A DNA stretch of 64,000 nt from Acidovorax sp. NCPPB 3576 (GTDB taxonomy: Bacteria > Pseudomonadota > Gammaproteobacteria > Burkholderiales > Burkholderiaceae_C). Shown in pieces: positions 11,177 through 44,594 of the stretch (positions within the stretch are counted from its first letter, which is position 1; each line of letters opens with the position of its first letter). Under the pieces are notes generated by a model. The model did not search any database, was not told the DNA's origin, and saw nothing but the letters and a program-made list of their open reading frames with translations. Both the position numbers and the translations under genes were made by a program. The stretch is taken from assembly GCF_028473605.1 (NCBI RefSeq), contig NZ_CP097267.1, positions 3,216,501 to 3,280,500 on the forward strand, read 5' to 3'.

Positions 11177-11532
11177 GCCAGTACCCTCTTCCTGATCGGG
11201 GCGAGCAGCGCGGTAATGGGCGCTGGCAGCTGACCGTCCTCAAATGCCTTCTTTTCGTCACCGCTCGGGTAGCGGTAGAGGTAGCCCACCAGCAGCAGAG
11301 TCGCGGATTTCACGATGGAGCGGATCGCGGTCGTGTAGACGATCTTTCCGTCTGTATCGCGCACAGGCTGGCCCAGCGAATCCAGTTCGGGCTGGAAAGG
11401 TGGCACGCCGTTGAGGTGCATGGCAATCCGCTCGGACGCCGCTTCCAGCTTCAGAATCAGGTCGTCGTCAGCGGAATCGTCATCCACGCGCAGGTGCTGC
11501 TTGACCTGCTCCAAGGTTGCGAACGGCGTCAT
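11173..11532 (-). CDS. head-tail connector (gp6-like adaptor)
   Basis: 119 aa. MTPFATLEQVKQHLRVDDDS, then LILKLEAASERIAMHL, is the typical start of HK97 gp6-like adaptors; C-terminal helices follow (IRSIVKSATLLLVGYLYRYP). It binds the portal ring. Overlaps both neighbours by 4 nt. Confidence 0.88.
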   Translation of the reverse strand: MTPFATLEQVKQHLRVDDDSADDDLILKLEAASERIAMHLNGVPPFQPELDSLGQPVRDTDGKIVYTTAIRSIVKSATLLLVGYLYRYPSGDEKKAFEDGQLPAPITALLAPIRKRVLA

Positions 11533-12599
11533 ACGGCAATGCCCTTCCCGGCATCACGACCTCGCTTAACGGCCAGGCGCCAGCCATTGGAGCCGGGCTC
11601 GCCGGGGTGCCCGATCGGCGCATCCTTCTGGGCGATGAAATACGAGCCACCCCAGGTCACGCCGTCGCCAGCTTCGTAATCCGTCCCAGCCTTGAATACG
11701 CCCTTATCGACCAGCGCGGCGACCTTGATGCTTTTCGAGACTTCCGCGCCGCTTGAAGTGCGGGCCACCACCGTGAACTCGCGGCCGTCCTGATCGATGC
11801 GGAGATCAGCGATGCCTTCAACCACGCATTCCCAGCCGTGCAGGCCCTTGGTTGCTTCGAAGGCGCGCCACAGTCCGCCCGCATGCCTCGCATACGTGCC
11901 GCGAGCGTAGGACTTCTCCAGATCAATCTCAGGTTGCAGTTCCAACTGCAGGGCGTCGCGGCCTGGCTCGCCATCCTTCGGCACGGCCACTGCGCTCAGT
12001 GCTTTGGTCACAGCCTCATCCACCATGCGCTGCACCTCCTCGGCGGGCAAAGATTCGCCGTCCTTGGGGCGCGGAATTTCAGCAACCGCCTTGGCGACCT
12101 CTTGCACCACCAGCGGCGCCACGTCGTCAGCAGTGACGCTGCGGCCATCTTGCGGCAGAGGAATCGCAGCCACAGCCTTCGCGACAAGCTCCGCGACCAC
12201 TTCAGGGTCGGCATCCTTGCCGTCCTTCGGAGCCGGGATATCTGCTACAGCCTTCGTCACCAATTCGGCCAACATCGGAGCGACATCGTCAGGCGTGACG
12301 CTGACGCCGTCCTTAGGCGCGGGAAGCTCCTGGACCGCCTTCGACACCTGCTGCGCGACCTCCTCCACGACCATGGGCGCCAGTTCTTCAACGGTCACAC
12401 TGGCGCCAGGCTCGCCGTCCTTGGGACGCGGAATCTCAGCCACTGCGGCCTGCACACGCTCGGCCAGCTGCTTGCTCACGCTCTCGGGCAACTCCTTGAT
12501 CGCAGTGTCGATGTCGTCCAGGCGCTTCATCAACGGTGCCATCTTGGCGCGCACGGCCTTGATCACGGCGTCAGCCAGGGCTTTCAGGTCAGCTCGCAT
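11529..12599 (-). CDS. repeat-rich phage structural protein between portal and connector
   Basis: 356 aa in three parts. Residues 1-50 are a helical start. Residues ~52-225 hold about six copies of a 25-36 residue unit: an Ala/Val-rich helix (VAPMVVEEVAKAV) followed by a Pro-Lys-Asp-Gly turn (EIPRPKDGE, ELPAPKDGV, DIPAPKDGK, PLPQDGR). The C-terminal ~120 residues contain a YARGTYARHAGGLWRAFEAT module that looks like carbohydrate-binding modules of phage proteins, and end in a basic tail. It overlaps the portal gene end by 16 nt. I do not recognise a named family; a head-attached fibre or decoration protein is inference. Confidence 0.6.
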   Translation of the reverse strand: MRADLKALADAVIKAVRAKMAPLMKRLDDIDTAIKELPESVSKQLAERVQAAVAEIPRPKDGEPGASVTVEELAPMVVEEVAQQVSKAVQELPAPKDGVSVTPDDVAPMLAELVTKAVADIPAPKDGKDADPEVVAELVAKAVAAIPLPQDGRSVTADDVAPLVVQEVAKAVAEIPRPKDGESLPAEEVQRMVDEAVTKALSAVAVPKDGEPGRDALQLELQPEIDLEKSYARGTYARHAGGLWRAFEATKGLHGWECVVEGIADLRIDQDGREFTVVARTSSGAEVSKSIKVAALVDKGVFKAGTDYEAGDGVTWGGSYFIAQKDAPIGHPGEPGSNGWRLAVKRGRDAGKGIAV

Positions 12600-13987
12600 T
12601 CCAGTCCCTTCTCGATGTACTCGGCCAGGGCCTTCACATCGTCTTCGCTGATCTCGTCAGGCTCTGGCTGCGGTGCAGGCGCGGGAGGTGGCACCGGCAG
12701 ATCAACCAGAGCGACCCGGTTCAGACGCACTTGGTCAAGTGGCATGTCTTGCTGTTGCATGTACACCGTGTCCCCACCCAGCAATGGCGCCAAATTCAGT
12801 TCGCGCCGTCCTTCGTTGGGCGTCTTCACCCCTCCGCCTACGAGCTTCACAATCACCTCGGCATTGGTGGCAGGATCCATGCGCAGCAGGTTTTCCAGCT
12901 CCAGCTCCGTGCGGTAGCCAGCAGGCAGCGAAAGCCCGTCGTCAAAGCACAGCTCCATCTCCTCGATGAGGGAGTGCAGCGCGTCGTTGAAATAGATCTG
13001 GTTCAGGTCGCCGACCTTCTGGCCGGCGGGGATCGGACCGCCGACTTTGAAAGCCGGCACATGGAACACCTGCGCCACCATCTCGGAGGTGAGCGTGATC
13101 TGCTCTTTCGTCTGGGCGTCCGACGCCGTCATGCGGATGGGCTCGTACTTGAGCCCGTCGCCCACCACCGCCACCTTTCCCGAGTTGGGCCCGGTGAAGT
13201 TGTCGTTCCAGTAGGCCTGCAGTCGCTTGGCATCGGCATCATCGATCTCACCGGGAGCAACCAGGAGGCCGCTGGGCTTCGCGCCCTGATTAAAGAAGCG
13301 CCGCGAGTCCCGCAACATTTCCAATCCGCCGGAGGCCGGCAGGCAGGCCGCAAACAGCGGCGAAACGCCAACCAGCGGGTGGAACATGCAGTTCATCCGG
13401 TCGTGGATGACCTCGGAGGTCGGCACGTACACCGTGGACTCCTGCAGGCCAGATAGGTTGTCCTGCCCGAGCTGGTAAAAGATGGAGCCGTCTGGCGCGA
13501 TCAGTGGCTGAACGAGTCCAGGGACGAGCACATACAGTGCCACCACGACGCCTCGGCCATCACGAATCTTGAGCGCGTAGGTATTACCCCAGGTCAACTT
13601 CGAGCAGATCCACCATTGCTTGAACTGGATCTGGTTCTGGTAATGGTTGGGCCGGCGCAGCACGGGGGAATAGGCGGGATTGGTGGACTCCTTCCAGATG
13701 CCGCTCGGCTGCAACTCCATCAGGCGCGTGCGCAACTTGCCGATGTCGTTGTAGATCAAGGAGCAGCACGAGAACACCGCCGGGTACGACAGCACAGTCT
13801 CCGGGCGGACGTTGATGTCAATCTGGAAGTAGCCAGGCGGTTGTGCTGGCGTGATGTCGTGCCACACACCATCGGTATGCGGCGACACCAAGCCCCGCGG
13901 CTGGGCCGTCACGATGCCCTTCTGCACCTCGCCGCCACTGGCGGGCGTCGCCCCGCGGCTGACGAGATTTCTAAGAAAGCGAATCAT
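12584..13987 (-). CDS. portal protein (HK97 type)
   Basis: 467 aa. The core is typical of Phage_portal: YPAVFSCCSLIYNDIGKL, WWICSKLTWGNTYALKIRD, FFNQGAKPSGLLVAPGEIDD and EMVAQVFHVPAFKVGG. It forms the dodecameric DNA channel at one capsid vertex. The C-terminus is Pro-rich and acidic. In most HK97-like phages the portal gene lies between terminase and protease; here it follows the capsid gene. Its ATG overlaps the preceding 118-aa gene (ATGA). Confidence 0.92.
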   Translation of the reverse strand: MIRFLRNLVSRGATPASGGEVQKGIVTAQPRGLVSPHTDGVWHDITPAQPPGYFQIDINVRPETVLSYPAVFSCCSLIYNDIGKLRTRLMELQPSGIWKESTNPAYSPVLRRPNHYQNQIQFKQWWICSKLTWGNTYALKIRDGRGVVVALYVLVPGLVQPLIAPDGSIFYQLGQDNLSGLQESTVYVPTSEVIHDRMNCMFHPLVGVSPLFAACLPASGGLEMLRDSRRFFNQGAKPSGLLVAPGEIDDADAKRLQAYWNDNFTGPNSGKVAVVGDGLKYEPIRMTASDAQTKEQITLTSEMVAQVFHVPAFKVGGPIPAGQKVGDLNQIYFNDALHSLIEEMELCFDDGLSLPAGYRTELELENLLRMDPATNAEVIVKLVGGGVKTPNEGRRELNLAPLLGGDTVYMQQQDMPLDQVRLNRVALVDLPVPPPAPAPQPEPDEISEDDVKALAEYIEKGLECELT

Positions 13988-14400: not shown

Positions 14401-15804
14401 TCAGCCGCCGGCATCCACGGCGCCGTAGTCGGCGCCGGTGATAACCGCCACTGCGGACGCGCGGCGCTTGGCGAAGTTGATGGAGCGCACCACCTTGATG
14501 GCGGTGGATTCGCTCTGGAACATCGAAGTGAAGCTCGCAGACGCGCCAGTGGGCGTGTCGGTCGCGCCCGTTGGGGAGGTGTCCTGCTCGATCATTGCCT
14601 CGCGAGAGATCGACACCTGCACGCCAGAATCGCCGATGCGGTAGATGTCCGAGGGCTTCAGCATCATCATCAAGCCGGCGCCGACGTTGTCGCCCGTGGT
14701 CACCGTGTCACCCAGCAGCGTGCCGCCTGATGCATTGATGCCAGGGAATTCGACCAGGCCCAGAGCGTTTGTCATCAGCTGGACAGACTTGGCCAGGGAC
14801 GGGGTGGTCACCAGGTGCAGGCCGTTCACGTTCTTGGCGGCGATGAACTGCGCGTACAGGGCCTTGATGTCGGCACGCAGGCCGGCGCCGTCGGTGCCAG
14901 CGGAGGGGATGCCGGTCACGCCGTTCAGGATGCCAGCCGGAGACACGCCAGCGACACCAGCGGCCGCGCTCAGGAACGTGGTGTCCACGCGCTGCGAGCT
15001 GGCTTCCACCAGGGCATCGCGCACCAGCTGCTCGGCCGATGGGCTGGAATCGCGCAGCAGTTCGTTGGAGACCACGGCCAGCGCAGCCACCTTCAGCGGC
15101 GTCAGCGTCACGTTCATGAAGTCGGCGGTGGTCGCAGGGATGGCCTTCGACTGCCCCACCCAGTAGGCGGTCGCCGCGCCGTCCTGGCCCTTGATCTGCA
15201 CGTTCGCAGGGATCTGGCGCAGCGGCAGCTTGTCGTACACGGTCTGCGAGTACAGGAAGTCGATGAAGTCGCCGGTGTAGCGCTGATCGATAGCCGCCAG
15301 CTCGGCGCCCCACTCGCCTGTGCCGGTTCCGCCGCCAGGCACCGCGGCCTTCATGACGTTGATCAGCGTGGGATTGGTCTTGCCCCAACGAGCTTCCGCG
15401 ATGGCGAGCGCCGAAACGTCGCCGTCGCTCAGGCGGGACAGGGCCTTGGCGATCACGATGCGGGTGTAGTTCTGGCCCTTGAACTTCTCGTCGGCGTCCT
15501 TGTTCATGTGGATGGCAGGAGCGCCACCGGTGGCCAACGCACCGCGGGCGACTGCACCAGCGCCGGCAGCAGCACCGCCCGTGGCTGGAACAGCCTTGGT
15601 GACTTGCAGCGCTTCGAGTTCGCGCAGGTCCGCCAGCTCAGCATCGATCTGGGAAATGTCGGTTGTGAGGCCCTTGAAGGCTTCGCGCTCGCTCTCGTCC
15701 TTGGTCCGGCCTTCGTCCAAAGCCTTCTTTTGCACGCCTTCCAGCTCCAGGGCCTTGGCGGTGCGCGTCTCCATGAGGCGCTTGATCTGTTCTTGCAGGT
15801 TCAT
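14401..15804 (-). CDS. major capsid protein, HK97 fold
   Basis: 467 aa. The N-terminal ~75 residues are a charged coiled coil (MNLQEQIKRLMETRTAKALE), the delta/scaffold domain removed by the protease in this family. An Ala/Gly linker (residues ~78-95) follows, then the HK97 core (AAVPGGGTGTGEWGAELA, IPANVQIKGQDGAATAYWVG, VVSNELLRDSSPSAEQLVRD). GAAAGGA lies before the ATG. The protease gene directly upstream supports processing. Confidence 0.92.
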   Translation of the reverse strand: MNLQEQIKRLMETRTAKALELEGVQKKALDEGRTKDESEREAFKGLTTDISQIDAELADLRELEALQVTKAVPATGGAAAGAGAVARGALATGGAPAIHMNKDADEKFKGQNYTRIVIAKALSRLSDGDVSALAIAEARWGKTNPTLINVMKAAVPGGGTGTGEWGAELAAIDQRYTGDFIDFLYSQTVYDKLPLRQIPANVQIKGQDGAATAYWVGQSKAIPATTADFMNVTLTPLKVAALAVVSNELLRDSSPSAEQLVRDALVEASSQRVDTTFLSAAAGVAGVSPAGILNGVTGIPSAGTDGAGLRADIKALYAQFIAAKNVNGLHLVTTPSLAKSVQLMTNALGLVEFPGINASGGTLLGDTVTTGDNVGAGLMMMLKPSDIYRIGDSGVQVSISREAMIEQDTSPTGATDTPTGASASFTSMFQSESTAIKVVRSINFAKRRASAVAVITGADYGAVDAGG

Positions 15805-30099: not shown

Positions 30100-30327
30100 T
30101 CAGACCTTGGCCGTGGGTTCCGGCAACTTCGCGTCTTCGTAGATGTGCTCGAAGGTGATCGGCAACCCTTGGGACTTACAGAACGCGATCAGCTTCCGCG
30201 CCATCGCCGGCGGCACCGTCTGCCCGTTTTCGTAGTGCCCGACGTTTCCCTGAGTGCAACCGATGCCATCGGCTACGACCCGCTGGGTGATGCCGAGCCG
30301 CTGTCTGATGATTCGGAGGTTTTGCAT
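30100..30327 (-). CDS. Cro-like helix-turn-helix repressor
   Basis: 75 aa. HTH_3 pattern: MQNLRIIRQRLGITQRVVAD, then GCTQGNVGHYENG in the recognition helix. It is divergent from the CI gene across 81 nt holding four TAGCGCC-type motifs. It should repress cI and its own operon during lytic growth. A TTGCGC-N17-TAGGAT promoter on the minus strand would start transcription close to the ATG. Confidence 0.85.
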   Translation of the reverse strand: MQNLRIIRQRLGITQRVVADGIGCTQGNVGHYENGQTVPPAMARKLIAFCKSQGLPITFEHIYEDAKLPEPTAKV

Positions 30328-30408: not shown

Positions 30409-31170
30409 ATGGCAGAAAACAAACGTTCGAAGATGACCGCGGAGCTTCTTGAAGAGGCTGCTCGGCTGAAAGCCCTCTGGGATGATGGTCGTCCCCATAG
30501 AACCCAGGCTGTGTTCGGCGAGGTGTATGGGCTCGGCAACCAAGCCAATGTTGGCCACTACCTCAATGGGCGCAGTCCTTTAAACCCAAAAGCCGCCGCA
30601 GCATTCGCAGCGGAACTAGGATGCAGCGTTTCGGACTTCAGTCCTCGTGTAGCGAAGGAATTGGACCGACTCGCGAGCCCGCAGGCCCATGCAATTGAGG
30701 TGTCAGGAGAGCGCGGCGGATTGCAAGATGTCGTGATCGCGCAGTACGACACCGGCGGTGCGATGGGCCATGGGTTCAACCTGACCGACCACCCACCCGG
30801 GATGATTAAGAGTTGGCGGGTTGACCACGATTGGCTACGCTTCAATGTGCCCACACACACTGGAGTGAAGAACTTGGCCATCGTCACTGGGTTCGGGCCA
30901 TCTATGCGTCCCATGTTCAATCCAGGAGACCCGCTGCTCGTGGATACCGGGGTGAAGGTCATCGATCACGAAGGCGTGTACTTCTTCCGCGTGGGCGATG
31001 AGGGCTACATCAAACTGGTCCAGCGAGTGCCGGAGTTCGATGGCCCCGGAGTGATCCTGCGGGTGATCTCGAAAAACCCGGACTTCCCGCCCTACGATCT
31101 GTCGCCAAAGAATCCGCACTTTGAGGTGCTGGGGAAAGTGCTCACTGTTTGGCGCAGTGAGCAGTTCTAG
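30409..31170 (+). CDS. cI: CI-type phage repressor with S24 autopeptidase domain
   Basis: 253 aa. N-terminal HTH (residues ~10-75: RTQAVFGEVYGLGNQANVGH YLNG region) and C-terminal LexA/CI-like S24 domain with Ser165 in GFGPSMRPM and Lys202 in GYIKLVQR. It maintains lysogeny and should self-cleave on RecA activation. The usual Ala-Gly cleavage dipeptide is not obvious; TGGAMGHG (residues 115-122) may be the linker. No Shine-Dalgarno precedes ATG 30409, and a -10-like TAATAA ends 7 nt before it, so the mRNA may be leaderless, as for lambda PRM. Confidence 0.92.
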   Translation: MAENKRSKMTAELLEEAARLKALWDDGRPHRTQAVFGEVYGLGNQANVGHYLNGRSPLNPKAAAAFAAELGCSVSDFSPRVAKELDRLASPQAHAIEVSGERGGLQDVVIAQYDTGGAMGHGFNLTDHPPGMIKSWRVDHDWLRFNVPTHTGVKNLAIVTGFGPSMRPMFNPGDPLLVDTGVKVIDHEGVYFFRVGDEGYIKLVQRVPEFDGPGVILRVISKNPDFPPYDLSPKNPHFEVLGKVLTVWRSEQF

Positions 31171-33182: not shown

Positions 33183-34100
33183 ATGAAAACAGGTATCCAG
33201 GTGGCCGGCGAAAAACAGATACCACTCGACTTGGGCATCGAGGTTCAGAAAGACATCAACGGAATAGAAATGGGTGTTCTTGGAAACGGCATACCCTATC
33301 TTACCCAGCGGGGCCTTTCAGGAGTGACCGGGGTCAATCGAAGCGTTATCCAAGCAATAACAAAAGAATGGGAAGAGCAGTTTGAAAATCCAATCATTGG
33401 CAAAGATCGGAATTCCTTCCTGAAGCAGCATCTTTTCAAAAACGGCTATAACGAATCCAAACTGCACCTAGAGACAGTTCAAAACGGGGTCATCAATTAT
33501 GCCTACCCTGACGTGGTATGCATGGCACTTTTAGAATACTATGCATTTGAATCCAAATCAGACAATAAAGATGCGGTAGAAAATTACCGACGATTTGCTG
33601 CGTATGGCCTGCGTAAATTCATTTACGATTCGCTTGAATATACTCCTGAAGACAAATGGAAGTATCACCATGACCGTATCTCCTTGCTCAAGGACAGTAC
33701 GCCAATTGGATATTTCACGATTTTTCAAGAGACCACCGGCCTAATTGTAGACCTTATTTCTGCAGACTTAACGGTTAACAACCATACTGTAGCAGACATC
33801 AGCATCGGGCAGCATTGGGGAAAATACTGGAAAGAAAATAGTATGGAAAGCCAATTTGGCGCACGCATTCCATACGAGCACAACTATCCATCATATTATC
33901 CGCAGGCAGCCAGCAATCCGCAAGCGGCAAACGCATATCCTGACTCGGCATTGCCTGTATTTCGTCAATGGTTTAGACAGGAATACCTGCCAACGAAATT
34001 CCCAAAATACATACTAACCAAAGCTAACATTTTGCCCGGCGACAAAGACGCCGCCCTCCAAATAGGGAATATGTATCAGCCTAAGAAACTGCAAAATTAG
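33183..34100 (+). CDS. AT-rich orphan protein, possible phage defence or regulator
   Basis: 305 aa. The N-terminal ~60 residues (EMGVLGNGIPYLTQRGLSGV; NRSVIQAITKEW) look like a helix-turn-helix-type region of phage regulators. The middle is helical, and the C-terminal third is well ordered (ADISIGQHWGKYWKENSMES; then PYEHNYPSYYPQAASNPQAA; QWFRQEYLPTKFPKYIL). Base composition is strikingly AT-richer than neighbours. It is a single cistron with its own terminator. BstA-type prophage defence proteins occupy comparable places, but I cannot show that relation. Confidence 0.6.
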   Translation: MKTGIQVAGEKQIPLDLGIEVQKDINGIEMGVLGNGIPYLTQRGLSGVTGVNRSVIQAITKEWEEQFENPIIGKDRNSFLKQHLFKNGYNESKLHLETVQNGVINYAYPDVVCMALLEYYAFESKSDNKDAVENYRRFAAYGLRKFIYDSLEYTPEDKWKYHHDRISLLKDSTPIGYFTIFQETTGLIVDLISADLTVNNHTVADISIGQHWGKYWKENSMESQFGARIPYEHNYPSYYPQAASNPQAANAYPDSALPVFRQWFRQEYLPTKFPKYILTKANILPGDKDAALQIGNMYQPKKLQN

Positions 34101-36730: not shown

Positions 36731-36958
36731 ATGGAATCGACCGACCAATCGTATCGCCGCGAGGATGCTGCAAAGCTATTCGAAATAGCCGTTGCCACGT
36801 TTTTTCGCTGGGCCAGAGAGCGTCCAGACTTTCCTACGCCAAGAAAGCTGTCCGCTAGATGCACGGTCTTTGATCGAGATGAACTGCTGGACTGGAGAGA
36901 TGCGGCCTTGCACACCCAGCGAAGCTACATCACTACCGCAGACTGCCCAAAAAAGTAA
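36731..36958 (+). CDS. small helix-turn-helix protein (AlpA/MerR-like)
   Basis: 75 aa: SYRREDAAKLFEIAVATFFR, then WARERPDFPTPRKL and FDRDELLDWRDAAL, the pattern of AlpA/excisionase-type winged HTH proteins. It may regulate phage genes or assist recombination. Weak ribosome site. A minus-strand terminator overlaps its end. Confidence 0.65.
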   Translation: MESTDQSYRREDAAKLFEIAVATFFRWARERPDFPTPRKLSARCTVFDRDELLDWRDAALHTQRSYITTADCPKK

Positions 36959-37669: not shown

Positions 37670-38158
37670 TCAGGCCTTGTTCCCGCGCGGCTTCTTGGGC
37701 AAGCTCTTGGAAGCGTTAGCGCTCTTCCGTGGCCCGTATGGCTCATTGCCCCGCGGCTTCAACTCTGGCTCTTGGCCGCCCGGGAAGGATGCATTCGCTC
37801 GAGCGCCGCGCAGAATTATGTTCGCGTAGAAATCGTCGTACACACTTCGGAAGTCAGGCGATCTATCGAGGTTGTTTGGAATGACGACTTTGGTAGGAGT
37901 GTTGCGCTTTTTGCGCCCTTCGAGACGCTCCACCACCTTGTCAGCGATCTCATCTGCATTGAACTCAAAGCGCTTCTCTTGCGCGCCTGGCATCACTCGC
38001 GCTTCAACAGTGGTAACGACAGTCTCGTCGTAGGTCGCTTGAAGGCGCGCGACGATCTCGCTGTTCATGCTGCGCCCCGCCGCCTCGGCCGAACGCTCAA
38101 TCTTGGCCTTCAACGCTTCCGGGAGGCGAATTTTCAACTGTGGGTCTTCGCGGCTCAT
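37670..38158 (-). CDS. Mnt-like ribbon-helix-helix repressor
   Basis: 162 aa. The start, MSREDPQLKIRLPEALKAKI, then GRSMNSEIVARL, follows P22 Mnt (MARDDPHFNFRMP...GRSMNSEL) almost residue by residue: Arg2 and Arg10 (mature numbering) kept, His6 replaced by Gln and Asn8 by Lys. After the RHH domain it has a longer, basic C-terminus (KRNTPTKVVIPNN; KSLPKKPRGNKA) than Mnt's 82 aa. It is divergent from the Arc-sized gene over three ACCACGGTGGT copies. It should silence the antirepressor in lysogeny. Confidence 0.85.
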   Translation of the reverse strand: MSREDPQLKIRLPEALKAKIERSAEAAGRSMNSEIVARLQATYDETVVTTVEARVMPGAQEKRFEFNADEIADKVVERLEGRKKRNTPTKVVIPNNLDRSPDFRSVYDDFYANIILRGARANASFPGGQEPELKPRGNEPYGPRKSANASKSLPKKPRGNKA

Positions 38159-38172
38159 GGGCCGAATGATAG

Positions 38173-38262
38173 ACCACGGTGGTGCAAAACCCCCACGCCC
38201 ACATCAACCAATTGCAGGATGGACCACGGTGGTTTACATTTCAAATCATGGACCACGGTGGT
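38173..38262. promoter_or_regulatory. three operators ACCACGGTGGT for the Mnt/Arc-like repressors
   Basis: Exact copies at 38173-38183, 38223-38233 and 38252-38262: an inverted repeat ACCAC-G-GTGGT. Flanks share GG/GA upstream. The first is 15 nt before the Mnt-like ATG; the third is 16 nt before the GTG of the Arc-sized gene. The core CCACGGTGG is, as I recall, also the core of the P22 Mnt operator. Confidence 0.85.
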
Positions 38263-38277
38263 TCAGAAAGGCTCAGA

Positions 38278-38457
38278 GTGATCGCGATAAAGCCTGAAAC
38301 GTGCCAATTCAAGGTGCGAGTGCAGAAGCCGCTTAAAGACTGGCTTCAGCAACAAGCGAGTGCGGCGAAACGCAGCCTCACGGCCGAAATTGAGCTGCGC
38401 CTAGAAGCCAGCCGCAAGACCGACCAGCAGCTCCAGCAGAAAGGACAGCAGCAATGA
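38278..38457 (+). CDS. Arc-like ribbon-helix-helix repressor
   Basis: 59 aa from GTG 38278 (AAGG 8 nt upstream); an in-frame ATG at 38248 overlaps the third operator and would give 69 aa. RHH pattern: QFKVRVQKPLKDWLQQQASA then KRSLTAEIELRLEASRK, as in P22 Arc (QFNLRWP...GRSVNSEIYQRV). Size fits Arc (53 aa). It precedes the antirepressor gene, as arc precedes ant in P22, and would damp ant expression after its promoter fires. Confidence 0.78.
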   Translation: MIAIKPETCQFKVRVQKPLKDWLQQQASAAKRSLTAEIELRLEASRKTDQQLQQKGQQQ

Positions 38458-38594
38458 GTCAATTCGTTTTTTATAGCGCGCAATCCTTTGTCAGCAGGGG
38501 CTTTCAGACAATCAACCCCGGAGCCCCCCAGTAGGGTTTTCCGAAAGCAACCTTCCTATTGACAATTTCCGAACCGCAACTTCAAGGAAATCAG

Positions 38595-39425
38595 ATGCCC
38601 GATATCGTGACCATCGGCGGCGTGGAGTCCACGCTCATCACGTACAAGGACCGCCCGGTTTGCACTACGTTTCAACTCGCGCAGTTCTATGACTGCTCGG
38701 AAAAGAACCTGAGCGACAACTACGGCAACAACCGCGAGAGGTTCGAGGAGGACAAGCATTTCGTGCTGCTCGAAGGGGAAATGCTGCGCGCGTTCAAGGT
38801 GGGGTTGCCCGACCAAATCGGGGAACCTCTGAAGTTTGCTCCGAAAGTCATTCTCTGGACTGAGTTGGGCGCAGCTCGCCACGCCAAGATGCTTACTACC
38901 GACAGGGCCTGGGATATTTTCGAGCAGCTAGAAGACGCGTACTTTCGCGCTGAGACCGGCACCTACACCGCTAGTATCACTCCGCTCAAGGCAACGGCCG
39001 AAGCGGCGAAGGCGCTCCCCCATCTGGTACGCGCTGCCCGCCTGTTCGGCTGCGACAAGAACGCTGCGGCGATTTCCGCCAACCAAGCCATCTACTCGAT
39101 GACCAAAATTAACCTGATGCAGCAACTCGGGCACACGCACCTAGAAGCTGAAAAGCAGGATCACTGGTACTCGCCGACCGAGTTGGGCAAGCAGATGACT
39201 CCGCCTGTCTCAGCACGTCAGGTCAATCTGCTTCTGGCTGAAGCTGGCCTGCAGTTCAAGCGCGGTGATGTGTGGGAGGCAACCGAGGCGGGGAAAGACT
39301 TCGCGCGGGTCTACGACACCGGCAAGCGCCATGGCAGCGGAGTTCCGGTCACGCAGATGAAGTGGTCGGCCACAGTGATGGCCGTAATGCAGGCCCTTCC
39401 CGCAGAGCAGAAAGAGGCCGCATGA
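38595..39425 (+). CDS. ORF6N-domain antirepressor
   Basis: 276 aa from ATG 38595 (AAGGAA upstream). Residues 1-100 are the ORF6N domain (LITYKDRPVCTTFQLAQFYD; NLSDNYGNNRERFEEDKHFV; ILWTELGAARHAKML). The C-terminal half (YSPTELGKQMTPPVSARQVN; LLLAEAGLQFKRGDVWEATE) resembles the ANT/KilAC-type end of phage antirepressors. Such proteins bind CI to trigger induction. Repressed by the Mnt/Arc pair. Confidence 0.85.
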   Translation: MPDIVTIGGVESTLITYKDRPVCTTFQLAQFYDCSEKNLSDNYGNNRERFEEDKHFVLLEGEMLRAFKVGLPDQIGEPLKFAPKVILWTELGAARHAKMLTTDRAWDIFEQLEDAYFRAETGTYTASITPLKATAEAAKALPHLVRAARLFGCDKNAAAISANQAIYSMTKINLMQQLGHTHLEAEKQDHWYSPTELGKQMTPPVSARQVNLLLAEAGLQFKRGDVWEATEAGKDFARVYDTGKRHGSGVPVTQMKWSATVMAVMQALPAEQKEAA

Positions 39426-42975: not shown

Positions 42976-43076
42976 AGCAACCCCAGTTGAACCTGATGCG
43001 CCCAGTCGACATTACAGCCGACCCTGTCCAGTTAACGAGACGTGAGCAGCAACCTGCAGGAGGAGCAGAACCATGA
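42972..43076 (+). CDS. 34-aa peptide coupled to excisionase
   Basis: 34 aa (MKQPQLNLMRPVDITADPVQ). Starts with an ATGA overlap to the previous stop, and its TGA overlaps the excisionase ATG. AGGAGGAG near its end is the ribosome site for excisionase. Confidence 0.55.
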   Translation: MKQPQLNLMRPVDITADPVQLTRREQQPAGGAEP

Positions 43077-43288
43077 CAGCCGAAGTGACGACCCAGCCGT
43101 TCGTGCAGTCGGCTCGGTTTGTGACCATCAAACTGTGCGCCGCCATGACAGGGCTTTCACCGGCGGCCATCGAAAAGCGTATCGAACGAGGCTTGTGGCT
43201 GGAAAAGAAGGAATGGCGACGCGGGCGCGACGGTCGCATTTGGATCGACACCAAGGGGATAGAGGCATGGGTTTTAGAGACGGAGTAG
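43073..43288 (+). CDS. xis: excisionase
   Basis: 71 aa. VQSARFVTIKLCAAMTGLSP then AIEKRIERGLWLEKKEW and IWIDTKGIEAWV: the winged-HTH pattern of phage excisionases that sit just before DUF3596-type integrases. It directs the integrase to excise the prophage. Overlaps the integrase start by 22 nt. AGGAGGAG precedes it. Confidence 0.82.
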   Translation: MTAEVTTQPFVQSARFVTIKLCAAMTGLSPAAIEKRIERGLWLEKKEWRRGRDGRIWIDTKGIEAWVLETE

Positions 43289-44427
43289 AGGTTCGGGAAA
43301 GAAGCATCCGACTGTTCTTCGTGCACGATGGCGCGCGGTGCCGCGAGACTCTGACGATGGCTGGCAAACCGCTCGCACCCACGGCTGCCAACGTGAAGCA
43401 CGCACACCGTATTGCTGCCGAGATCCGGGACAAGATTCGGCTGGGAACCTTCGTGCTGGCCGACTTCTTCCCCGGTAGCCCGAGAGCTGCCAGCGTGGCC
43501 CCGGCCGCCGAGCAAAGGAATTTCGGCAAGTGGTGCGAACTGTGGCTGCAGACTAAAGGGCGCTTGGCCAAACGCACCCTCAGCCAGTATGAAAACGCCC
43601 TTGCCATCTGGCAGGGCCTGCTGGGGGCAGAGTCACCGATGGAGAAACTCACCCATGCCACGGTGGCCGCCAAGGTCGGCGGCTACCCATGGAAGTCTGC
43701 CAAGCTGCTGAACAACTACCTGATACCCCTGCGTGGGGTGTTCATGTTGGCTGGGCGAGAACTGAAGACGGAAAACCCCATGGAAGGCATCGAGAACTCC
43801 AAGCACCAGGCGGCCGCACCTGATCCGCTATCGACTGCGGAGATGGAGCGCATCCTCGCCGACTTGAGGGAACGCTACGACCAGCGCGTGCACGCCTATT
43901 TCGAATTCGCCTTTCTCACCGGCATGCGGCCGGAAGAGCTGATCGCTTTGCAGTGGGGTGACGTGGACTGGAACCACGGGACCATTCGCGTGGAGCGCGC
44001 CCGCACCGCAGGCGAAGAGAAGGAATTGAAGACGTATAACGCGCGGGACGTGGACCTTGTGGCGCGGGCCGTCGCCGCGCTGCAAACAATGAAGCCCTGG
44101 ACATGCATGGGCGGAGTGGATTCGGCCATTTTCCAGAACCCGGTGACCAACCGCCCGTGGCATGACGAGCGAAGCCAGCGCGACCACTACTGGACCCCTA
44201 GCTTGCGCCGTCTGGGCATCCGTCGCCGGCGCGCATACCAAACGCGGCACACCTATGCCGCCAATGCGCTCGCGGCGGGGGTGAACCCCGCGTACATCGC
44301 AAGGCAGATGGGGCATAAGAATGCCAAGATGCTATTCAGCGTCTATGCCAAGTGGATCGACGGGGCAGACCGTGGGAGGGAAAAAGCGAAGTTGGAAGCT
44401 GCACTCAGAAACGAAAAAGCCGCCTAG
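43267..44427 (+). CDS. int: tyrosine integrase with DUF3596 arm-binding domain
   Basis: 386 aa from ATG 43267, which lies inside xis; a longer frame to 43042 is the shadow of xis. Residues ~5-75 are the DUF3596/Arm-DNA-binding module; a core-binding SAM-like domain follows (~85-170); the catalytic domain has Arg221 (GMRPEEL), Lys255, Arg327 (YQTRHTYA, with Tyr324 at the usual first His), His350 (MGHKN) and the nucleophile Tyr360. It recombines attP with the tRNA-Val site next to it. Confidence 0.92.
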   Translation: MGFRDGVEVRERSIRLFFVHDGARCRETLTMAGKPLAPTAANVKHAHRIAAEIRDKIRLGTFVLADFFPGSPRAASVAPAAEQRNFGKWCELWLQTKGRLAKRTLSQYENALAIWQGLLGAESPMEKLTHATVAAKVGGYPWKSAKLLNNYLIPLRGVFMLAGRELKTENPMEGIENSKHQAAAPDPLSTAEMERILADLRERYDQRVHAYFEFAFLTGMRPEELIALQWGDVDWNHGTIRVERARTAGEEKELKTYNARDVDLVARAVAALQTMKPWTCMGGVDSAIFQNPVTNRPWHDERSQRDHYWTPSLRRLGIRRRRAYQTRHTYAANALAAGVNPAYIARQMGHKNAKMLFSVYAKWIDGADRGREKAKLEAALRNEKAA

Positions 44428-44517: not shown

Positions 44518-44594
44518 TGGTAGGCGCGATTGGACTCGAACCAACGACCCCCACCATGTCAAGGTGGTGCTCTAACCAGCTGAGCTACGCGCCT
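44518..44594 (-). tRNA. tRNA-Val (GAC), prophage attachment site
   Basis: 77 nt including an encoded CCA. Acceptor AGGCGCG/CGCGCCT pairs, anticodon arm CCACC-TTGACAT-GGTGG with GAC at 44558-44560, and a GTTGG-TTCGAGT-CCAAT T arm. The 3' end points to the integrase 90 nt away. Phages of this kind usually carry the tRNA 3' end as attP core, so the prophage-host junction is probably within its 3' half. The other att copy is outside the window. Confidence 0.95.

Follow-up and report, generated by a model that had tools for sequence, protein, structure and literature searches.

Paired RHH repressors, tandem predicted Mnt-type operators and an ORF6N antirepressor-family gene in an immI-like module of an Acidovorax prophage

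In the OR region of phage lambda, three operators lie between divergent promoters and are used by both CI and Cro. A different fold is found in the ribbon-helix-helix (RHH) repressors Arc and Mnt, in which DNA is contacted by the region of residues 6, 8 and 10 (beta strand). Both belong to immI of phage P22 (record BK000583), where divergent Mnt-like and Arc-sized RHH genes are followed, behind the Arc-sized gene, by an antirepressor gene, and where the annotation separates the operators O_arc and O_mnt. The roles of P22 mnt, arc, sar and ant are given in the accessible parts of PMC11016777 and PMC7549136; in the former, Ant acts as an antirepressor of the phage repressor. The title of a reference in PMC3325190, an article available in part, ascribes the specificity of Arc and Mnt to a short N-terminal region. 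According to the accessible part of PMC8022706, mnt without arc and ant in phages L and ST64T may be a remnant. RHH proteins with Arc/Mnt domains also occur in Pf filamentous phages; by analogy to P22, a part in the choice between lysis and lysogeny has been suggested for them (PMC7549136, accessible part). Unlike the locus described below, one Pf locus holds a single RHH gene beside xis and no CCACNGTGG site. The TF-small protein modules of PMC10432266 resemble our locus in the adjacent DNA-binding regulator and antirepressor and, by prediction, in the control of prophage fate outside the SOS path; the part of the article at hand describes no RHH pair, and the words Arc, Mnt and ribbon are absent from its main text.

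The locus was analysed within a stretch of 64,000 nucleotides (the window), which is part of the 5.41-Mb single-contig genome of Acidovorax sp. NCPPB 3576. Nine minus-strand ORFs below approximately 28.2 kb were scanned against protein families. They matched tape measure, portal (two ORFs), major head protein, terminase, helicase and primase families, with one further match to an unknown family and one ORF without any match. The two adjoining ORFs at 11529-13987 (minus strand) match opposite ends of one 859-position portal family, phrog_2271. A Cro-like HTH gene (30100-30327, minus strand) stands back to back with the gene for a LexA/CI-type repressor with an S24 peptidase domain (30409..31170, plus strand; PF00717, E 2.1e-11; phrog_4, E 3e-31). 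An earlier sequence-only reading had proposed a siphovirus-type prophage with a separate LexA-type cI. The head, portal, terminase and tape-measure matches are consistent with a long-tailed tailed phage, and the cI was found as described. Downstream of cI, a BstA-family protein is encoded at 33183-34100 (plus strand; phrog_6287, abortive infection, E 4.8e-107, nearly full length), and a weak AlpA/excisionase-like HTH gene, with a score under the cut-off, lies at 36731-36958 (plus strand). The integrase gene (43042-44427) ends beside a tRNA-Val (GAC) gene at 44518-44594 (minus strand), which is the probable attachment site. The RHH/antirepressor module is situated between the cI and integrase genes, unlike P22 immI, which lies between genes 16 and 9 (PMC8022706, accessible part).

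The same reading had placed in the module a minus-strand Mnt-like RHH gene, a divergent Arc-sized RHH gene and, downstream on the plus strand, an antirepressor of the ORF6N rather than the P22 type. The Mnt-like gene was found at 37670..38158 (minus strand). It encodes a 162-aa RHH repressor with R2, Q6, K8 and R10 (Mnt numbering) and a conserved C-terminal part. In the profile search, the protein matched Pfam Arc PF03869 above the curated cut-off (E 2.4e-12; 46.9 bits, cut-off 20.4), and the best solved structure by sequence was P22 Mnt (1mnt; E 2.6e-4, residues 3-42). The Arc-like gene (38278..38457, plus strand) starts with GTG after GAAAGG and encodes a 59-aa RHH protein. Its place was as proposed, and its family was assigned through the clade: alone, the protein stays under the Pfam Arc cut-off (E 0.0097; 16.2 bits against 20.4), but 11 of the 12 clade members scanned matched at E<=0.01 (best 6.2e-8), and the clade profile matched AmrZ (E 2.8e-5) and Arc (0.02). 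An alternative ATG just ahead of the operator O3 (see below) runs into a stop codon in the relative G034, as read by eye. R2 of the Mnt-like arm is missing from the Arc-like protein, whose contact residues are those of its partner, Q-K-R; this triad is present in all 12 clade sequences and in G034. This identity of the two triads sets the window apart from P22. The third gene (38595..39425, plus strand) encodes a 276-aa protein of the antirepressor family, with the start set by judgement at ATG 38595 rather than at the upstream TTG 38559. It matched PF10543 ORF6N above the cut-off (E 2e-15; 57.3 bits against 27.8) and the PHROG anti-repressor phrog_1760 (E 4.5e-33). ORF6N alone was matched, with none of the P22_AR domains that are found in P22.

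The Mnt-like protein is also longer than Mnt of P22 (83 aa) and differs in its C-terminus. Oligomerisation, given as the role of the C-terminus of P22 Mnt in the accessible part of PMC3325190, is by analogy the simplest guess for the C-terminal part. The search for relatives of the Mnt-like protein gave 42 proteins, itself included. No relatives were confirmed by tblastn with the protein or its alignment against genome contigs and viral contigs; the full-length protein did not occur in any searched relative outside its own genome, and the other matches cover mostly the RHH part. The conserved C-terminal region (window 37670-38020) follows either RHH alone or HTH plus RHH; in six of the 42 proteins, a Cro/CI-type HTH precedes a degenerate RHH. 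In several copies of this region we noted by eye a KVIIVGNLGRDPEER-like stretch, which we take to resemble the start of single-strand DNA-binding proteins. An exchange was also seen in the antirepressor: many of the 120 relatives listed, out of 730, carry BRO-N in place of ORF6N ahead of a window-like C-terminal half, which suggests that N-domains are exchanged on a constant C-domain. Several of these BRO-N proteins come from Comamonadaceae by name. One HTH plus RHH protein (P0009) and one BRO-N protein with the C-terminal half of the window antirepressor (P0062) probably lie together at one locus, because both come from contigs of equal length (11476).

The 119-bp gap between the Mnt-like and Arc-like genes contains three exact copies of ACCACGGTGGT, predicted to be Mnt-type operators: O1 (38173..38183), O2 (38223..38233) and O3 (38252..38262). 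When the gap was shuffled 200,000 times, one copy appeared in 14 rounds and two in none, so three exact copies are not due to chance. The whole genome contains 23 such sites, O1-O3 included, and this is its only place where two are 10-40 bp apart. The core CCACGGTGG of ACCACGGTGGT equals the annotated core of the P22 Mnt operator, asymmetric centre included; the window has three such operators and P22 one, annotated at 14822-14844. We rejected the idea that the operators are directly linked to the cI region, as no site within one mismatch lies there. The outer operator base is A/T in the window, with Q6 in the Mnt-like protein, in contrast to T/A in P22, which combines H6 with GTCCACGGTGGAC. 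In phages ST64T and L, Q6 goes with GACCACGGTGGTC. The outer base thus follows residue 6 in these cases.

O1 lies within the presumed mnt-like promoter, for which a candidate -10 (TATCAT, 38166..38171, minus strand) was noted by eye. The hexamer occurs at the same place in relatives as TATCAT, TATGAT or TAAGAT; no clear -35 was seen for it in the window gap. It is only 7 bp before the start codon, and the mRNA is therefore perhaps leaderless or nearly so. The candidate promoter of the arc-like and antirepressor genes (TTGCAG-17-TACATT, 38212..38240, plus strand) is a weak match (7 of 12) with O2 in its spacer; O3 follows this presumed promoter and precedes the ribosome-binding site of the arc-like gene. 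A consensus promoter scan of the window gap found no promoter; the counterpart in G034 is a better match (TTGAAA-17-TATATT). Eight gaps were aligned (window, G016, G034, L182, L198, L211, L214 and L112). Judged by eye, the blocks that are kept are the operators, the -10-like hexamer, which precedes the mnt-like start by about seven bases, and a TTG-type -35 followed, with O2 as the spacer, by a TATATT/TACATT-like -10. The exceptions are L112, which differs, and G016, whose O2 has one changed base.

We consider it likely that these elements form an immI-type secondary immunity switch, in which both repressors compete for one set of operators and an exchangeable antirepressor is controlled. The genes, their families and the operator positions were read from the sequence, and the scheme built on them is a prediction. 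In the lysogen, the Mnt-like protein would occupy O1, O2 and O3. Binding at O1, inside the mnt-like promoter, would lead to autorepression, and binding at O2 and O3, one inside the divergent promoter and the other just behind it, would keep the arc-like and antirepressor genes off. When the Mnt-like protein is absent, either upon infection of a cell without it or upon its loss, the rightward promoter would fire and the ORF6N antirepressor would be made. The repressor that it would then disarm is probably the LexA-type cI of the same prophage, a possible target, and lytic growth would be favoured. The same transcript would also give the Arc-like protein, which would bind the same operators and limit the burst. 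Such an arrangement resembles lambda OR in the three operators between divergent promoters and in two repressors predicted on the same sites. It differs in that the proteins are RHH and not helix-turn-helix, and in that an antirepressor rather than the primary lytic operon would be controlled. That the module is instead a decaying remnant without function seems highly improbable. The window promoters are weak consensus matches, and the relative G016 has no recognisable third gene: its genes and operators are kept, but the two ORFs behind the pair gave no Pfam match. However, the three operators are exact, the three frames are open, and the relatives keep the contact residues and the operator spacing.

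The immI-like reading stood at the level of genes, families and operators, with the P22 Mnt operator core present three times, but the module is not a copy of P22 immI, from which it also departs in its genome position. The sequences support a module that is immI-like in layout and fails three P22-specific features, namely a separate Arc operator, the sar RNA and P22_AR. The segment between the arc-like and antirepressor genes folded like its shuffles (z -0.2 on the minus strand and -1.2 on the plus strand), compared with z -5.3 for P22 sar under the same test; there was also no Rfam match in the segment.

The gene pair and its operators recur in other phages beside antirepressor-domain genes. 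Viral contigs were scanned, blind to proteins, for two ACCACSGTGGT motifs 10-40 bp apart, which gave 68 stretches (not de-duplicated). A Mnt/Arc-type RHH gene was within 150 bp of the sites in 62 of them, with divergent RHH genes on both sides in 38 and none in six. The neighbour was defined as the longest ORF on either strand within 2 kb, by the same rule on both sides. On the short-gene side, antirepressor N-terminal domains were found in up to 19 of 35 cases (pRha 9, ORF6N 4, AntA 2, KilA-N 2, P22_AR_N 1 and Bro-N 1), where "up to" is used because one protein could match two families, and beyond the long gene in 0 of 34. In the window clade, the third genes are of the ORF6N (window, L182), AntA (L198, L214), ANT (L211) and KilA-N (G034) types, so that besides the window, all five relatives with a candidate third gene scanned have an antirepressor domain. 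Few genomes carry the exact operator pair, namely 2 of 399 in the family and 2 of 185 in the class, the latter being the window's own and G581. Like modules are also present in the named phages Acinetobacter qsb1 (third gene annotated as BRO, ORF6N by Pfam), Pseudomonas UFJF_PfDIW6 (P22_AR_N) and Acetobacter phiAX1 (KilA-N), with no CCACNGTGG site in any of these three modules.

A second neighbour sample came from a 123-pair set: 86 of its loci have ORFs on either side of the pair, and 50 of these were drawn at random. Of them, 46 were not operator-linked, the linked ones being L003, L074, L121 and L143. Here, the longest same-strand ORF within 1.5 kb was taken. Antirepressor domains were found behind the short RHH gene in up to 21 of 50 loci (pRha 11, KilA-N 3, P22_AR_N 2, Bro-N 2, ORF6N 2 and AntA 1) and behind the long gene in none of 50. 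An integrase was on the short-gene side in 8 of 50. These data bear on another explanation, that the module is an autoregulated RHH switch whose ORF6N protein is not a cI antirepressor and has its target elsewhere, for example in a host regulator or a superinfecting phage. We regard this as doubtful, while giving it more weight than the other alternatives. The antirepressor label comes from homology alone, and the exchange of third genes among pRha, AntA, KilA-N, Bro-N, ORF6N and P22_AR could mean diverse targets. Against this, the families in question bear antirepressor or phage-regulator names, they were on the short-gene side only in both fixed-rule comparisons, and P22's own Ant performs antirepression according to the accessible part of PMC11016777.

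Whether partner repressors share operators was approached through the contact residues. In the 38 motif-found pairs, the triad at residues 6, 8 and 10 of the Mnt-like protein is Q-K-R in every case, and that of the Arc-like partner is Q-K-R in 21, another triad in 14 and unread in three. In the window, the two repressors have identical contact triads and therefore probably share operators. For an operator-independent sample, viral contigs were chosen by a coding pattern for RS(M/L)NAE. At least 552 loci yielded at least 211 divergent RHH pairs in at least 207 loci, and 194 of the 211 were usable. Loci linked to the operator scan (including L003, L074, L121, L143 and L171, the window's own locus), the window, its two operator-bearing relatives and pairs more than 80% alike were left out to give a set of 119 pairs. 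Partner roles (Mnt-like or Arc-like) were assigned by length.

In these 119 pairs, partners were identical at residue 6 (column 3) at a rate of 0.64 versus 0.26 expected from shuffled partners (z 8.6), and at residue 8 (column 5) at 0.42 versus 0.09 (z 13.0). The shuffle null takes no account of relatedness, and the remaining columns, with z at most 4.6, act as the control. Both residues were identical in 38 of 119 pairs, compared with 5.4 ± 2.2 expected and a largest value of 14 in 4000 shuffles; in the other 81 pairs they were not both identical. After de-duplication at 60% (n=82), z was 6.7 for residue 6, 11.4 for residue 8 and 3.0 for the next column. At 50% (n=39), the respective values were 4.9, 8.4 and 3.0, and at 45% (n=23) 2.6, 7.2 and 3.4; at this last level residue 6 no longer stands out, since 3.4 is reached elsewhere. 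Among partners less than 40% identical (n=62), z was 5.4, 7.4 and 2.1. The matching was absent in 18 non-divergent RHH pairs from the same loci (z 1.2 and -0.5). The result suggests that paired repressors in phages often read the same site.

It also argues against strict P22 immI logic, under which O1-O3 would serve the Mnt-like protein alone and the Arc-like protein would bind a different site, as Arc does at O_arc. The P22 annotation with its separate O_arc and O_mnt, the 17 of 38 motif-found Arc-like partners with another or an unread triad, and the missing R2 of the Arc-like protein are in favour of such a division. On the other side, besides the contact-column matching across the 119 pairs, there is the Q-K-R triad shared by the whole Arc-like clade and G034. 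Moreover, no separate Arc-type operator was found in the window, and no 4+4 dyad other than the operators is common to two or more of the seven clade gaps (without L112). We therefore judge strict P22 logic unlikely here and prefer competition of both repressors for one operator set.

The gaps of 119 such pairs were then related to the contact residues. A dyad with two three-base arms separated by five bases occurred at least twice in 56 of 119; when the gaps were shuffled in 20 rounds, the mean number was 6.4 and the highest 11. In the longer protein, residue 6 was associated with base -5 (Q with A in 11/13, K with G in 27/32, P with T in 5/5) and residue 8 with base -4 (K with C in 4/4, M with T in 9/11, I or V with G in 18/21, G with A in 4/5; N was mixed). 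Recognition by the invariant R10 would account for C at base -3, which was found in 49 of 56. Mutual information gave z 15.6 for residue 6 and base -5 and z 8.3 for residue 8 and base -4; at 60% de-duplication these values were 11.2 and 4.7. The same residues against base -3 gave z 1.3 and 0.9. All these figures are inflated by relatedness. The code is not a strict one, as N8 is accompanied by G, T or A in the pair set but by C in P22 and ST64T.

On balance, we lean slightly towards a broader view, in which divergent RHH pairs with exchangeable antirepressors would make up a large class of switches in temperate phages and form an RHH counterpart to CI/Cro. Their contact residues would co-evolve on shared tandem operators largely set by residues 6 and 8, and P22, with its split operators, would be atypical. 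If this is true, P22 immI is the studied example of a second immunity switch that is widespread, and the window adds one case of it. Operators would be largely legible from two amino acids of the beta strand, so that the sequence would allow prediction of operators, of prophage cross-immunity and of the antirepressor under the control of each switch. Such predictions would be testable with short DNA and small proteins. In the available literature, we found no report of shared operators or of a class of divergent RHH pairs, and no paper containing the operator string; this is weak evidence of novelty because most subscription papers fell outside the search. In phages L and ST64T, a perfect dyad GACCACGGTGGTC is present upstream of mnt (L232, 2426-2434, and L016, 2107-2115). 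It fits the Q6 of this mnt, and the mnt product of these phages may therefore still bind DNA.
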